Positions 12,638-23,700 of a DNA stretch of 64,000 nucleotides are shown piece by piece (position 1 is the stretch's first letter; each line of letters opens with the position of its first letter). The notes below the pieces were generated by a model that ran no database searches, was not told where the DNA came from, and saw nothing but the letters and a program-made list of their open reading frames with translations. The stretch comes from Oscillospiraceae bacterium. GTDB lineage: Bacteria > Bacillota > Clostridia > Oscillospirales > Acutalibacteraceae. The position numbers were made by a program, and so were the translations under genes. Location of the stretch: NCBI GenBank assembly GCA_015066225.1, contig SVOT01000003.1, positions 62,001 to 126,000 on the forward strand, written 5' to 3'.

Positions 12638-12732
12638 AGAACAAATACCTCGAAAAAATAATAGATATTATACCATAAGTTTTACCTGTATTGCAAGATT
12701 AAAAACACTAAAATCGCACAAAACCACAAAAA

Positions 12733-12757
12733 AGTGCGTTGCAAAACGCAACGCACT
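12733..12757 (-). terminator. Rho-independent terminator of the epimerase operon
   Basis: AGTGCGTTGC-AAAAC-GCAACGCACT stem, T-run on the minus strand. Confidence 0.8.
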
Positions 12758-12766
12758 AAATTAATT

Positions 12767-13759
12767 TTATTTCCCCTCGTATTCACGAATCCACTGAACC
12801 ATATCTGCAACAGACTGTTCAACGCTCATTGGGTTATAATCAAGCTCTTTTCTTGCTTTTTCGATAGAAAAATTGCAGTTTGAAACAAGCTTGCGGATTG
12901 AGTATCTTGTGAAAAGAGGTGTTTTCTTTGCAACCTTGTAGAAAACCTCTGCCGCAGGTGCAACAGCCTTTGCAACACCGTAGGAAAGCGGGATTTTAGG
13001 GGCTTTCTTACCACAAGCCTTTGCAGTTGCTTTAATAAATCCGTCAACAGAAATCTGCTCACCGCAAAGAATGTAGCATTCACCCTTGCCGCCCTGCTTT
13101 GCCGCCATATACATACCGTGAGCAACGTCACGGATATCAACAAAATTGTATGCACCGAATGAAAGAGTTACGGGGAAAATGCCGTTAACAAACATTCTTA
13201 CCATTTCACCAACGTTTGAAACCTTAAAGTCATAAGGACCGATGCAAGCACCGGGATGAGTAACAACAGCATCAATTCTGCCGGCTTTTACCTCGTCGAG
13301 AACAAACTGTGTTGCAGTTGCCTTTGTTTTTGCGTATGTACCCTCGAGCTCGTCAATGGGGAAAGAGTCAACCTCTTTCATAACCTGATTGTCGGGAAGC
13401 GGAACGAAAGCATCAACAGAGGAAGCATAGACAAGTCTTCTTACGCCTTTTTCTTCGCAAGCCTGAACAACGTTCTTTGTGCCGCCGACGTTAACGTTCC
13501 AGATCATATCCTCTTGGTCAGCGTTAATGTCAATAATGCCTGCAAGGTGATAAACCACATCAACACCCTCAAATGCTTTGAGAAGTGCATCAAGGTCGGT
13601 TACGTCGCCATAGACCTTTTCGCATTCGATTCCGTCAAACTGCTTGGAATCTTTTCTGATGAGAATTCTAACTTTTTCGCCGCTGTCAACAAGCTCTTTC
13701 AGAAGAGCGTAGCCTATATGACCGGTTGCGCCCGTTACAAGACTGATTTTATCGCTCAT
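12767..13759 (-). CDS. NAD-dependent epimerase/dehydratase (extended SDR)
   Basis: VTGATGHIGYALLKEL, YASSVDAF, YAKTKA. Confidence 0.85.
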   Translation of the reverse strand: MSDKISLVTGATGHIGYALLKELVDSGEKVRILIRKDSKQFDGIECEKVYGDVTDLDALLKAFEGVDVVYHLAGIIDINADQEDMIWNVNVGGTKNVVQACEEKGVRRLVYASSVDAFVPLPDNQVMKEVDSFPIDELEGTYAKTKATATQFVLDEVKAGRIDAVVTHPGACIGPYDFKVSNVGEMVRMFVNGIFPVTLSFGAYNFVDIRDVAHGMYMAAKQGGKGECYILCGEQISVDGFIKATAKACGKKAPKIPLSYGVAKAVAPAAEVFYKVAKKTPLFTRYSIRKLVSNCNFSIEKARKELDYNPMSVEQSVADMVQWIREYEGK

Positions 13760-13765
13760 TTCAGG

Positions 13766-14785
13766 TTATTCTCCTTTCATGCCGAGAAGCTCAACCGTTC
13801 CGTCATAAACTGCCTGTGAAACCTTAATTGAATCAAAGATAGCGGCTTTGATATCGTCATCGGTAGCACCGAGCTCCTTTGAGAAACGGTCAGGGATAAA
13901 GAGGTTAATACCCATAATATCTGCAAGTCCGTCAACGTCGATACCGCTTTCAATACCCTTTTCAGCGTATTCTTTCTTAACACCGCCGAGACCCATTCGC
14001 ATCATCCAGGGAGCAACGCTGATGATTTTACGGTTTTCGCCCATACCTCTTGCGGCATAAACGATTTTGAGAAATTCCTTCCATGTAAGGTTATACATAC
14101 TGATTGGCCAAGCCTTTGCGCCCTTTGATTTTTCAGCGGCGCCGACGATAACCTCACCAACCTGGCGTACTGTGAGCATCGCTGTGCCACCGCCGGGGTA
14201 CATTGTGAAGGGAAGCTTATCCATTCTCTTAATCTGTTCGATAAGGATAACCCAAACAGGCTTTCTGCCGGGCTGAGTGCCGAAGATATAGGGAAGCTCG
14301 AGAACTGCTACATCGAAGTTTTCGTCGGCAAATGAGAAAGCAACATTCTCCTGGTCGATACGGCTTCTGATGTATGGATGCTTTTCTGTGAGCTTCATAT
14401 CGGGGCGCTCTTTTGCAAGGTATGCAAAATACGAACCGAGAATAACTGCGCTCTTTACGCCAACCTCTTTGCAAAGAGGAAGAATTCTTTCAAGGGGCTG
14501 AATGTTGTATTTGTAGTATGCATCGTAAACGGGTGCGGGGAATTCAACTCTTTCGTCAATACCTGCGGCGAAAACGAAGCAGTCGTGACCCTTGAGGAGC
14601 TCACGGATTTCGTCATCTGATTTCTCGTAGATATTGCAGAATTCAAGCTTCATTTCCTGGGGAATGGGAGCACCCTCCGGAAGAGGGGGAAGAGCAACGC
14701 TTGTTACATCGTGACCTCTTTCAATAAAAATTCTTGCGGCTTCACAGCCAAGAAGACCTGTACCGCCAATCATAAATATTTTCAT
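13766..14785 (-). CDS. NAD-dependent epimerase/dehydratase family protein
   Basis: MKIFMIGGTGLLGCEAARIFIERGHDVTSVAL. Confidence 0.8.
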   Translation of the reverse strand: MKIFMIGGTGLLGCEAARIFIERGHDVTSVALPPLPEGAPIPQEMKLEFCNIYEKSDDEIRELLKGHDCFVFAAGIDERVEFPAPVYDAYYKYNIQPLERILPLCKEVGVKSAVILGSYFAYLAKERPDMKLTEKHPYIRSRIDQENVAFSFADENFDVAVLELPYIFGTQPGRKPVWVILIEQIKRMDKLPFTMYPGGGTAMLTVRQVGEVIVGAAEKSKGAKAWPISMYNLTWKEFLKIVYAARGMGENRKIISVAPWMMRMGLGGVKKEYAEKGIESGIDVDGLADIMGINLFIPDRFSKELGATDDDIKAAIFDSIKVSQAVYDGTVELLGMKGE

Positions 14786-17955: not shown

Positions 17956-17979
17956 TCTATCCCAACAACAAATTATTAC

Positions 17980-18140
17980 AATCGGCACACAGTGCCCTTA
18001 AACTTGCAACCAGTGACTGGCGGCTGGCGGCTTTACAATCGGCGCAAAGCGCCCCGAAACTGGTAGCTGGCGACTGGCGACTGGCAGCTAAGCAATCGCC
18101 GCTTGCGCCCCTTAACTTGCCACTCTCAACTTGCAACTTT
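17980..18140. repeat. Degenerate tandem repeat, about three units of roughly 58 bp
   Basis: Units begin acaatcggcacacagtgccc / acaatcggcgcaaagcgcccc / caatcgccgcttgcgcccc, each followed by acttgcaact/ctggc-type tails. Confidence 0.7.
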
Positions 18141-18188
18141 AAAAAGCGGCTTGGAATTAACCAAACCGCCCTTTGAAATATTAAATTG

Positions 18189-18809
18189 TTAATCCGGGTC
18201 AATCATAGAACCGTCCGCTGTCTTACCTGATTGGTCCAATAATAATACAGAATTTTTAAAATCTTTTTGGGAAAAAGAAAAACTGTATTTTGATATATTA
18301 TAAAGAGTATTTCCATTTCTCACAAACAAAAGTTGTTCCGTTTCAAAATTCAAAACAGAAAAATCTTTTCTTGAAACAAACACCGTGAATTCATCGGTAT
18401 TTTCTAAAACAAATCCATCTCGATAATCATCGACGTAATACCAAAAAGCTTCCTCACATTCTGAAGATGTTTTATATATTTTTAAATAAACATCTGTAGT
18501 GAAGTCCAATGCGAATGCGACCACAATTGAATTTGAATTTTCATAACAGTCGAAATACAGTTCCCCATATAATTGCTTAATATGATCAATATCAAAACCA
18601 GCATAATCAGGGAAAAGAGACTTTTTTGCCAATGGTTTAAATAAACTCTTTGTATATTTCGGACATATAAGACATTGAAATACTATTGCAATTACTATAG
18701 AAATGATTATTATTTTCAACAATTTAGATTTTCTACGCAAACACAAATCCATTAAATTGATACTCCTTCTTCGAAAAATATTTTTTATATTTTTTGCTGT
18801 AAAGTTCAT
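18189..18809 (-). CDS. Membrane-anchored hypothetical protein, putative orphan immunity protein
   Basis: N-terminal TM segment LLKIIIISIVIAIVFQCLI followed by a presumed extracytoplasmic domain; located in the Rhs tail cluster. Confidence 0.55.
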   Translation of the reverse strand: MNFTAKNIKNIFRRRSINLMDLCLRRKSKLLKIIIISIVIAIVFQCLICPKYTKSLFKPLAKKSLFPDYAGFDIDHIKQLYGELYFDCYENSNSIVVAFALDFTTDVYLKIYKTSSECEEAFWYYVDDYRDGFVLENTDEFTVFVSRKDFSVLNFETEQLLFVRNGNTLYNISKYSFSFSQKDFKNSVLLLDQSGKTADGSMIDPD

Positions 18810-18872: not shown

Positions 18873-19502
18873 TTATTCAATTACTTCATTTAAGTAATCG
18901 ACTGTTTGCATAAGAATTTTGTCGTTGTTGGAGCTGTTTTCAAAAGCTAACGTTAAAACATATCCATCCTTGATAATTAAGATTTCACTCAGATAATGTA
19001 AATCAAAAATATTGCTGTCATACATATAATCCGAGTCACCGTAGTAAATTACTATCAGTGCATTGTCCTGAATTCTCTTTTCACCCACCAAATGATATCC
19101 GGGATCATAAATTCTTTCCTCCATATAATAATTATAGCATGTACCGTTTGGGTCTGTGTCCAAGTGCACCAATATATCTATATTCTCGTAAAGCTCAGGG
19201 TCATCGTGTGGCTCCCGCCCTTTTGAAACATAAAACTTCTCTATTTCTGCCAAATCAAGCTGTACAAGTTCATTTATAGTTTCTTGTGATACGGATGTTT
19301 TTTTGTATTCTATATCGAACCAAAACGCCGGAATCAGTAAACAAATAACCAATAACACGACAAATCGGATGATATTTTTTCTGGTTTTGGACTTAATTAG
19401 CTTAACAAAGGCTATTATTGCAAATATAACAATAGCTACCGGAATAAGAACACGTAAAAAAATCCAGATCCATATATTCAAATCTAAATTTACTATAATC
19501 AC
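18873..19502 (-). CDS. Membrane-anchored hypothetical protein, putative orphan immunity protein (GTG start proposed at 19502)
   Basis: GGAGGAGAGG RBS before the GTG; two N-terminal TM segments then a soluble domain; lies directly downstream of the Rhs core scar. Confidence 0.55.
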   Translation of the reverse strand: MIIVNLDLNIWIWIFLRVLIPVAIVIFAIIAFVKLIKSKTRKNIIRFVVLLVICLLIPAFWFDIEYKKTSVSQETINELVQLDLAEIEKFYVSKGREPHDDPELYENIDILVHLDTDPNGTCYNYYMEERIYDPGYHLVGEKRIQDNALIVIYYGDSDYMYDSNIFDLHYLSEILIIKDGYVLTLAFENSSNNDKILMQTVDYLNEVIE

Positions 19503-19518
19503 AAAACCTCTCCTCCGT

Positions 19519-19719
19519 TCATCCAACAAGTATTTTACAGTTTCTTTCACCTATACCTACCATGAACGTAAAAACATAGAGAATCCCATCATTCTCACAA
19601 TAAGCAAACAAATTGTAAGAAAGAGTTGTGCCTGTTGCGCCGAGGTAAGACGTGGGGTTACCGATTGGATAAACTATTATTTGTATAAAAACAAATTTGC
19701 CGTTTTTTAATCTTGTCAA
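19519..19719 (-). pseudogene. Orphan Rhs core/tip-junction remnant (chimeric)
   Basis: Encodes IGNPTSYLGATGTTLSYNLFAYCENDG. Plus-strand 19585-19648 matches 21449-21512 (62/64 nt) and 19641-19666 matches 22048-22073 (24/26 nt) of the neighbouring rhs gene. Confidence 0.85.
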
Positions 19720-20066
19720 TTATTATCCCCCTCTCCTCAGAAAGGTTATATTTGTCATTTCTTTAAACTGACAAATTTCGACAATTAAATTATCTTGATA
19801 TGGTAAGTTTATTACAGTTGAATCTTGCGATTCAACGACGTTCGGCTCTCACGTCGAGAATCCTCCACCATCGCAAGCGATGGTCCCCCTCCTTTCGAAA
19901 GGAGGTAAAAAAACATTGCATGCCCCCTCTCTCCACGAGAGAGGTAAAGGGCGGTTTAACAGCGATTGAAAAACCGCCCTTTGAAATATTAAATTGTAAA
20001 TCGGACTTTTTCAGTGGTTTCGAACCGTCAACTGATTGGTTTATCAAAACCGCCCCTGAATGAACC

Positions 20067-20720
20067 TTATTCCTCTAACCAATCTTCCCAATTTGATTCA
20101 AAAATGATGTTGTCTGAAATATCTTGTGAAACAATTTCTTTTTTGTAGATTATTTCAGGATTTGTTATAAACCAAAAAAAAGTTGCAAAGTTTTTATCTT
20201 CGTACCAATAATAAATATCAATTATTTTCTTGTCATCTTGAATCAGAATTGTACCGTTCGCACTTTCCGGCTGCCACAAATGAGACAATCGAACATCTTT
20301 AGGGCACCTAAGCCAAGATATCGAACACGTTGTTTCGTCGCCCAAGTCATAGGTTTTTATTATTCCGTCTGTGAACAAATCTTCTGACCCATCATTATGA
20401 TACACCTGAATTTGACCTCTCACATGTTCAGCTTCAAATTCATAATAACCTAAATCCAAAGAAAGAAATTGCTCTTTATTCTCTCTGAACGAATCGATGT
20501 CAATTCTTGGCTTTACTACAAAAGAACCAAGGGCTAAATAACCAAGAACACCAACCAACAGCAAAGAAAGCACGCTAATTAGAATACCCTTGCGTCGTTT
20601 AGAAGCTATCGAAGAAAATAAATTCACCAAAATAATTATTGGAAGAACGACCAAAGCAAGAATAAATAAACATCTCAAAACACAAAGAATCTGTAGCATT
20701 ACAATTTCAGATGTACTCAT
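20067..20720 (-). CDS. Putative membrane-anchored immunity protein for the Rhs tip
   Basis: N-terminal TM segments (CLFILALVVLPIIILVNLF, ISVLSLLLVGVLGYLALGSF) then soluble domain; start overlaps the rhs stop by 4 nt. Confidence 0.6.
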   Translation of the reverse strand: MSTSEIVMLQILCVLRCLFILALVVLPIIILVNLFSSIASKRRKGILISVLSLLLVGVLGYLALGSFVVKPRIDIDSFRENKEQFLSLDLGYYEFEAEHVRGQIQVYHNDGSEDLFTDGIIKTYDLGDETTCSISWLRCPKDVRLSHLWQPESANGTILIQDDKKIIDIYYWYEDKNFATFFWFITNPEIIYKKEIVSQDISDNIIFESNWEDWLEE

Positions 20721-23700
20721 ACCCTCACCCCACTATCTTTGGATAGAATTGAATTGTAGCTTTTCACAAACTCATTTAAGATTGCTTTTGTTCTTTTTTC
20801 TGTTTTTTCTACTTGCTTTAGCCTTTTTTGTACATTATCTGCGCCGCTTCCCAGATGTGACCATCCTAAAACTACAGTAACTCTTGCTTCAATTTGTCCG
20901 TAAAGATTTTTAATATATATTGTCTTTGGAACAGGAAATCTATAACACATATCGCTTGTGTGTGCATACATATCCTGTATCGGGTGAAGTGCATAACCTA
21001 ACGCTATCAAACCCTTTTCTACTGCTGTTTTATATTTTTTTGTACCCTTTTTATAACTCAAAGCCTCTTCAAAATAACTATGTGCTTCTATGCACATAAC
21101 AAGTGATATTATAATCCTGCTATCACTTGTGTCATTTTCGTTCGTATTAAAATGCCACGATTGGTATTCACCTAAAATAGGACTATACTGTCTATCCACA
21201 TCATTGCAATAATACGCTATTGCCTTCGCATTATTTACATTAACACCACATTTTACTGCCCAATAATAAGTTCCATAATAAATTGGGGTTTCATCCTTAC
21301 CTTTACCGCTGATATAATATGGTATTAATTTTCCATTCATTCCCTTGACGTAACGAAGTTTCACCTTAGCTTTATCCTTTTGACTTGGCTCATAATACCC
21401 TGCATGCACATCATAAGCCCACGTACCGGTTGCATCAACATAATTCACCCCATCATTCTCACAATAAGCGAATAAATTGTAAGAAAGAGTTGTGCCTGTT
21501 GCGCCGAGGTAATCCGTGCTGTCTGCGTTGATGAATCTGCAAATATCGGGGTCATAGTATCTTGACTGTAGGTAATACATACCGATATCGTAGTCATAGC
21601 AATAGCCACGGTACGTAAAGGGGTTGACGTTGGAAAGGGTTGCCGCAAGTGCCATACTTTCCATATCAGTTGCGCTGTAGGTTACCTTGCCCCAAGCGGT
21701 GTAGGAATACGTGAGAATAATGCTACCGCTTTCGTCAACAATACCGGTTATATCCCCCTGGCCGTTCTTCAGGTAAAGATACGCTGCGGTGTTGTCAAGA
21801 ATAAATCCCCTTATTTCACCCAAAGAATCATAAATGAATCTTGCCGTATTGGAGGCTCCGTTTGACGTGTAGGTGAGAAGAATCAATCTGCCCTCAGAAT
21901 AAACGTAGTCATAGCGGGCTGTTTCAACACCGTTGGTTTTAACAACCTTGCGGTATCTCATTCCGTCAACGTCGTAGCTGTAGGAAATCTCTTTGTTTCC
22001 CTTTTCGTATTTAACGAGCTCTCTGCCACGCCAACTGAGATTTGCCCCGAGGTAAGATGTGGGGTTGCCGATTTCATCATAAGAAATGGTTTTGTTATTC
22101 AAGCCCGTTAACCTGTCCTCCCAGGTGTCTGCCCCATAAACGAAGCTGTCTGTTGAAACAAGCGTTTCGCCTGTGAGCATTTTTCGGGTAACGATGTTGC
22201 CCTTTGAATCATAGGTGTATTCATAGGTATTTGAGCCCGACACTTCTCTTATAAGCTGCCCTGCTTCATCATAGACATATTGACTTGAACCGTTTAGGCT
22301 CTGAACACCTGAAACGGCAGAAGCGTTTATTATTCTTCCGTTTGAATCATAGGTGTAGCTATAGTTTACTGTGCCCGAATTTTCTCCGCCGATTGTGTTG
22401 TTAAAGGAAGAAACAAGGTTTGTTGTTATATCACCCGTTGCTTTATAACCGTATTGCGAAGAAATTGAAGCATAATCGGTAACAAGAGAATCCTTGGGAT
22501 TCTTCATCATAACCGTTACGGATTCCGTTCTGCCGAACCAGTCTGTTACCGTTTGGGTGCCTATTGTTTTGCCGCCCACAACGGCTTCATATTCAGTTGT
22601 TTTGCCGGTTTCTGCATTGTAATCGCTTTCATAAACGTTGTGAGTATATGAAACGCCGTTTGCGGTTTCTTCGGTTATGCTGATGGGCTGTTCGCTACCA
22701 TCTTCAGAAGAAGCGTCCACTTCAACGTCGGCAATTTGGTAAATTATCTGATTTGTTGAAGCATCGGTAATTACGAGACCGTTTTCGGTATAGGTTATTT
22801 TGTGACCTGTGCCGTTGTCACGAATGCTTCTTAAATTGCCGAGATTGTCATACTCGTAGCTGTAGGTTATTGAGTCACGCTCGCCCTGAACCACGATGTA
22901 TTTTTCAACCGCTGTAACCTCGCCGGTTTTGCCGCTGTATGAATATTTCACCGTGAAATCTTCGTTGGCTGTGTCGCCGAAAACAACGGATAAAACTCTG
23001 CCTCGGTTTTGCTTTGTACCGTAATTGTAGCTTATTAACGGATTTCCGTCAACAAGAATCTTTTTCACCTGACCCCAGCCGTCGTATTCATAGGTATATT
23101 CAACGTTGCCCTGTTGAACCTTTTCCAACAAATCGCCGTCATAGACGTAGCTTATCGCAAGCTCCGTTGCGTTGTTTGCCAAGCCCGTTGCGTTTATTTT
23201 TGCAAGTGTCAGGTAACCCATAGCATTTGACTGATAGGTTGTTGTTTTTTGTGCTGCATCTGTTACGGTTGCCAACGTTCCGTCGATGTTGTAGGAATAG
23301 CCGGTTGAAACGTTGTTTTCATCCGTTTCGGATACAACAAAGTTAAAATCATCCGAATATGTCACCGACGACTGCATATAGCTTTCACCGTCAAAGCTTT
23401 TTGTGGTTTCTGTTTTGCCGTCGTCGCTGAGAGAAACTGTGCCGCTTTGTCTTTTGCACTCAACGCACTCACAGCTTTCTTCACTTTCGCAAGTGCAGGG
23501 GCAATCAATTTCTTCGCACTGTTCGCACACGCAAATGTCTGTGGGCTCAGTTTCGTCAGTGTCGGGTGTTTGTTCATCTGCGGCAGATTTCATATCTTCC
23601 AAAGAAAAGCTGACAGCATCTGTTGCCAACGTCAGCTCCACTCCCGTTACAAATGAATCCTCGGGAACGTTTTTGGCAATTACTGTAACGTCAACGGCCT

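Follow-up and report, generated by a model that had tools for sequence, protein, structure and literature searches.

A probable remnant of an orphan rhs-CT module, with a shortened core and a lost toxin tip, beside an intact rhs gene in an Oscillospiraceae genome

We analyzed a 64,000-nucleotide stretch of an Oscillospiraceae genome (hereafter, the window), in which two non-adjacent pieces of rhs core are joined in frame, the toxin tip is absent, and an intact small gene, here denoted gene B, lies close downstream. The evidence largely supports identification of this joined segment, the scar, as the remnant of an orphan rhs-CT module that had its core shortened and lost its toxin. The fuller history that we favor, in which a displaced orphan module underwent a core deletion and loss of the tip while gene B was kept and the 66-codon frame became mostly functionless, is probably correct. 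As a cleanly preserved trace of C-terminal displacement and decay, a process known from Rhs and CDI, the scar does not represent a new kind of system. Coordinates are collected in Table 1.

Table 1. Features of the rhs locus and the scar, in window coordinates
Feature	Position	Strand	Remarks
66-codon open frame with chimeric scar	19519..19719	minus	TTG start 19719, TGA stop 19519
Scar arm 1, internal YD-core piece (IGNPTSYLG)	19649..19666	minus	parent site 22048-22073, including shared bases
Scar arm 2, end of Rhs core (YLGATGTTLSYNLFAYCENDG)	19585..19648	minus	parent site 21449-21512
Sequence shared by both arms at the join (coding strand, TTACCTCGG)	19640..19648	minus	9 bp
21 residues and stop after CENDG	19519..19584	minus	stop directly before gene B ribosome site
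Intact rhs gene, 2187 aa	20717..27280	minus	ORF; Pfam RHS_repeat 2.3e-22
Current C-terminal tip of intact rhs gene	20717..21448	minus	weak signal of DUF6765 / zinc-dependent phospholipase C type, under family cut-offs
Dispersed intergenic repeats of the genus	19799..20034		32-bp unit 19971-20002 recurs at 18163-18194
Putative cognate immunity gene A	20067..20720	minus	start overlaps rhs stop (ATGA)
Putative orphan immunity gene B, GTG start	18873..19503	minus	two predicted long N-terminal hydrophobic helices and beta-rich domain
Putative orphan immunity gene C, one hydrophobic segment	18189..18809	minus	ORF

The scar is a partial rhs core like that of the full rhs gene upstream of it on the same strand, and its frame reads LTRLKNGKFVFIQIIVYP-IGNPTSYLG-ATGTTLSYNLFAYCENDG-ILYVFTFMVGIGERNCKILVG. 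Arm 2 is identical to the end of the core of the intact gene at 62 of 64 positions, and arm 1 agrees with its parent site, which lies beside the other YLG site, at 16 of its 18 unique bases; in both arms, the two differences are synonymous. The 9-bp sequence CCGAGGTAA is present at both parent sites and in a single copy at the join, the pattern expected of a microhomology deletion, and the shared stretch extends to 13 of 14 bases if one mismatch is allowed. Most of these relationships had been recognized in an earlier note on this DNA. Its pairing of 19641-19666 with 22048-22073 at two mismatches holds, as does its count of two mismatches between 19585-19648 and 21449-21512; the shared sequence, which it described as the YLG codons, is 9 bp long instead of 8; the distance of about 540 bp between the parent sites is exactly 543 bp; and the 21 residues are indeed followed by a stop, which is located 15 nt, not 16, before the GTG at 19503, the start codon that best fits the Shine-Dalgarno sequence GGAGGAGAGG of gene B.

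For arm 2, none of 100 control 64-mers taken from other parts of the window exceeded 38 of 64 matches, compared with 62 of 64 for the scar. For the much shorter arm 1, 1 of 400 control 18-mers matched as well anywhere in rhs. Because YLG occurs at exactly two places in the 2187-residue Rhs protein (residues 1743 and 1924) and IGNP at one, the coincidence to be considered is a match at a single preset site, for which the calculated chance is about 2e-8. The parent sites of the two arms are on the same strand and in the same frame of rhs, with the arm 1 site upstream in the coding direction, and the distance between them, 181 codons, is a multiple of three, as required by the in-frame join. On the 5' side of IGNP, no core homology is detectable, with 225 of 500 shuffles scoring as well; a by-eye reading of the DKI..NGK segment as core was dropped, being not above shuffled sequence.

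Downstream of the core, no recognizable toxin tip is present. Only 21 residues follow CENDG, and neither the family search nor the search with the 66-aa query produced a family or homology match for them, so we call the scar a remnant and not an intact module. These residues are possibly the last ones of the lost tip.

Rhs core matches were found in 16 of the 22 genomes of the genus, the present one included, many of them with orphan partial cores behind a full rhs gene, and at the fetched loci, orphan core fragments with differing tips occur after full rhs genes or near contig ends. On a 434-residue query, these fragments begin anywhere between about positions 184 and 394, and nearly all stop at the core/tip boundary (433-434). 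Across relatives, core arms span from about 12 to about 250 residues. Arm 2 ends at CENDG, adjoining the boundary common to these orphans, and the residual orphan module proposed in the earlier note, with its shortened core and lost tip, thus fits best. Very short arms are found in two loci of the same genus (40 residues in L057 and 43 in L093), and the tip of the L093 orphan is related to that of the intact Rhs described here (39% identity). Another genus of the family has a three-module array (L088; G331:C41, 656-3387) with arms of about 12 to 28 residues, in which each module consists of a short core arm, then a different tip, then a small gene. A second decayed orphan (L094; G013:C17:60000-77336, 12708-13896) has a core arm 77% identical to the one described here, followed by a frame change just past the boundary, a metallopeptidase-like remainder (HELIH) and a lipoprotein-like gene. 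Short-armed orphan modules are therefore routine here, and decaying tips occur elsewhere too.

The joint itself was found in no relative. The earlier note had raised, as contrary possibilities, an unrelated conserved gene covering this segment and the same junction within a complete Rhs protein elsewhere. Neither was encountered: the junction was absent from 398 family genomes searched with the 66-aa query and, as the single degenerate pattern IGNPxxYLGATGT, from the genome contigs, and the interpretation of the frame as a conserved small gene unrelated to rhs was rejected, the 66-aa query having retrieved no such gene.

The genomic setting agrees with that of a C-terminal displacement locus. 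A search of the genome's own assembly (2.03 Mb, 18 contigs) returned one full rhs gene of this kind and the scar as all the rhs sequence found. On the 3' side of rhs, gene A, the scar, gene B and gene C follow in this order on the same strand, in a region that is, as expected of such a locus, GC-poor (35.2% versus 42.9% in rhs). The tip of the intact Rhs contains the motif HPIQDMYAH and weakly matches DUF6765 (1.3e-5, 25.5 bits, cut-off 26.6) and Zn_dep_PLPC (0.032). In one related genome (G015), the genes that flank the locus here are only about 1.2 kb apart; neither there nor in a second genome (G011) was a strong rhs match found at the corresponding place, so that the locus was either inserted here or lost there.

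Dispersed intergenic repeats, present across the genome and the genus, occur on both sides of the scar (in addition to the stretch in Table 1, at 17976-18228). We considered them as boundary sites of a cassette because the 32-bp unit flanks the block comprising the scar and genes B and C, but dropped this idea: such repeats are found next to unrelated genes as well, and one type folds into a terminator-like hairpin. One 25-bp repeat unit has six copies in this genome, some beside unrelated genes, and runs into a terminator-like hairpin. The last codons of gene C (DGSMIDPD) are inside a dispersed repeat (18163-18220), and a small gene at L094 ends in a similar DGSMIEP; the repeat thus seems to provide some of these genes with their 3' ends.

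Genes A, B and C are small genes with hydrophobic N-terminal segments, and the true start of gene C, read by eye, is probably an internal ATG near 18752. Family searches with the three proteins returned no family above cut-off and no known immunity family, and no relatives of gene A were found. Nor are the three demonstrably related to each other: the one similarity between A and B is a hydrophobic N-terminal match (E 0.004), and the other pairs show nothing. The structural model of gene B (mean pLDDT 64.5, low confidence) and its predicted topology are consistent with a membrane-anchored protein with an exposed domain, and together with its position close behind the scar, this predicted layout makes it a candidate immunity gene of the lost tip. 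Searches in the family and the order yielded three weak matches to gene B, two of which were inspected (L074 and L075) and have no rhs gene; searches of genome contigs and plasmids gave no matches. None of the family, order and genome contig searches returned a homologue with an intact toxin ahead of it, so the existence of such a toxin here is inferred. At L075 (G077:C10, 792-2805), tandem small membrane-anchored proteins distantly similar to gene B are encoded downstream of a dockerin-like repeat protein, possibly as the immunity array of another toxin type.

The history that we favor is based on this one assembly, compared with genomes of the genus and the family. By a mechanism known from other bacteria (PMC2935791) and in keeping with the genus-wide pattern, a previous toxin tip, preceded by part of the core and followed by gene B, would have been displaced behind the current tip and gene A. 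One loss would have removed the 543 bp of core that separate the two YLG sites, in frame and probably by way of the 9-bp shared sequence; the other would have taken nearly the whole tip, from CENDG to the final residues ahead of gene B. Gene B probably stayed open as protection against neighbors with the cognate toxin, and the 66-codon frame is probably functionless, save perhaps for carrying ribosomes to gene B. Against this history stand the missing intact toxin ahead of any gene B homologue, the lack of a recognized immunity family for gene B, the mere 18 unique bases of the internal arm, and the open frame with its ribosome site and synonymous changes, which also fits a selected peptide.

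As the cause of the core join, we prefer a short-homology deletion within an existing orphan; the main rival is a join made at insertion. The module might never have been longer here, its tip cassette having been joined by homology-facilitated illegitimate recombination, with the tip lost later. The tiny internal arm, with no detectable core 5' of IGNP, and the orphans with arms of only 12-43 residues (L088, L057 and L093) agree with this scenario, which has been proposed as a mechanism for effector-immunity arrays (PMC5361080). However, an in-frame skip of 543 bp between the sole two YLG sites fits a simple deletion, and the same joint occurs in no relative; we regard a join at insertion as a serious but rather unlikely alternative.

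The bases by which the arms differ from their parents bear on the age of the scar. The four differences (GGT/GGC, ACG/ACA, TTG/TTA and TTT/TTC) are all synonymous transitions, an outcome with a chance of about 0.0035 under random change, or 0.014 counting transitions only, the number of changes being small (n=4). From this, we infer that the arms diverged as functional rhs core. On the simplest reading, the parent of the scar would have been a separate functional rhs core diverging under purifying selection, with the chimera and the loss of the tip being recent. The same synonymous pattern would also arise if the 66-codon frame were still under selection. In a further rival reading, the frame is a small gene with a function, created by the fusion and retained as a translated leader that is coupled to gene B. 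Orphan modules are usually without translation initiation signals; the candidate TTG start of the scar frame stands behind the Shine-Dalgarno-like sequence GAGGAGAGGGGG. This site, the open frame, the stop close before gene B and the four synonymous changes speak for a leader. Nevertheless, we consider it improbable: the frame was found in no relative among the 398 family genomes, gene B is preceded by a strong ribosome site of its own, and divergence before decay explains the synonymous pattern equally well. Even less probable is the more specific proposal that a 66-residue Rhs-derived peptide has been retained as a leader coupled to an orphan immunity gene, making the loss of the tip an adaptive conversion to an immunity-only unit. 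Finally, an assembly artefact at a repeated rhs core, conceivable in a draft genome of 18 contigs since assemblers err at short direct homology, is the most doubtful reading, because synonymous bases distinguish both arms from the parent copies and the flanking sequence is unique, which shows that the scar is not a collapsed copy.

Returning to the displaced and decayed orphan module, the closest parallels are the dissociated rhs tips produced by C-terminal displacement (Jackson et al. 2009, PMC2935791), where core fragments of variable length, several of them degenerate, are likewise related to the upstream rhs gene and lie in GC-poor tails with small genes; here, by contrast, the core fragment is chimeric, consisting of two non-adjacent pieces, the tip is essentially gone, and the host is outside enterobacteria. 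Orphan cdiA-CT/cdiI and rhs-CT/rhsI modules (Poole et al. 2011, PMC3150448; Koskiniemi et al. 2014, PMC3967940) similarly present a carrier fragment before a small downstream gene, and some reported fragments are without a marker motif or an immunity gene. Compared with the Salmonella orphan, which has a shared stretch of 522 bp, the arm here is about 90 bp, and there is no toxin to redeploy. The string of small downstream genes also resembles orphan immunity gene arrays (Kirchberger et al. 2017, PMC5361080; Zhang et al. 2012, PMC3482391), which have been read as relics of tip replacements, in which effectors are displaced and immunity genes retained for protection; similar arrays have been reported in bee gut bacteria (PMC8125069). 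Unlike in those arrays, a piece of the displaced carrier gene can still be read here and records one intermediate step.

Orphan immunity arrays are regarded as fossils left by the swapping of toxin tips. The scar is a readable intermediate: internal core and the toxin were lost, the small gene that follows them remained open, and a 9-base repeat of a structural motif marks a breakpoint. The array at L088 offers a natural series for asking how much homology tip exchange minimally requires. The scar also extends the record of tip swapping to a genus other than the enterobacteria and Vibrio, the groups in which the process has been worked out.
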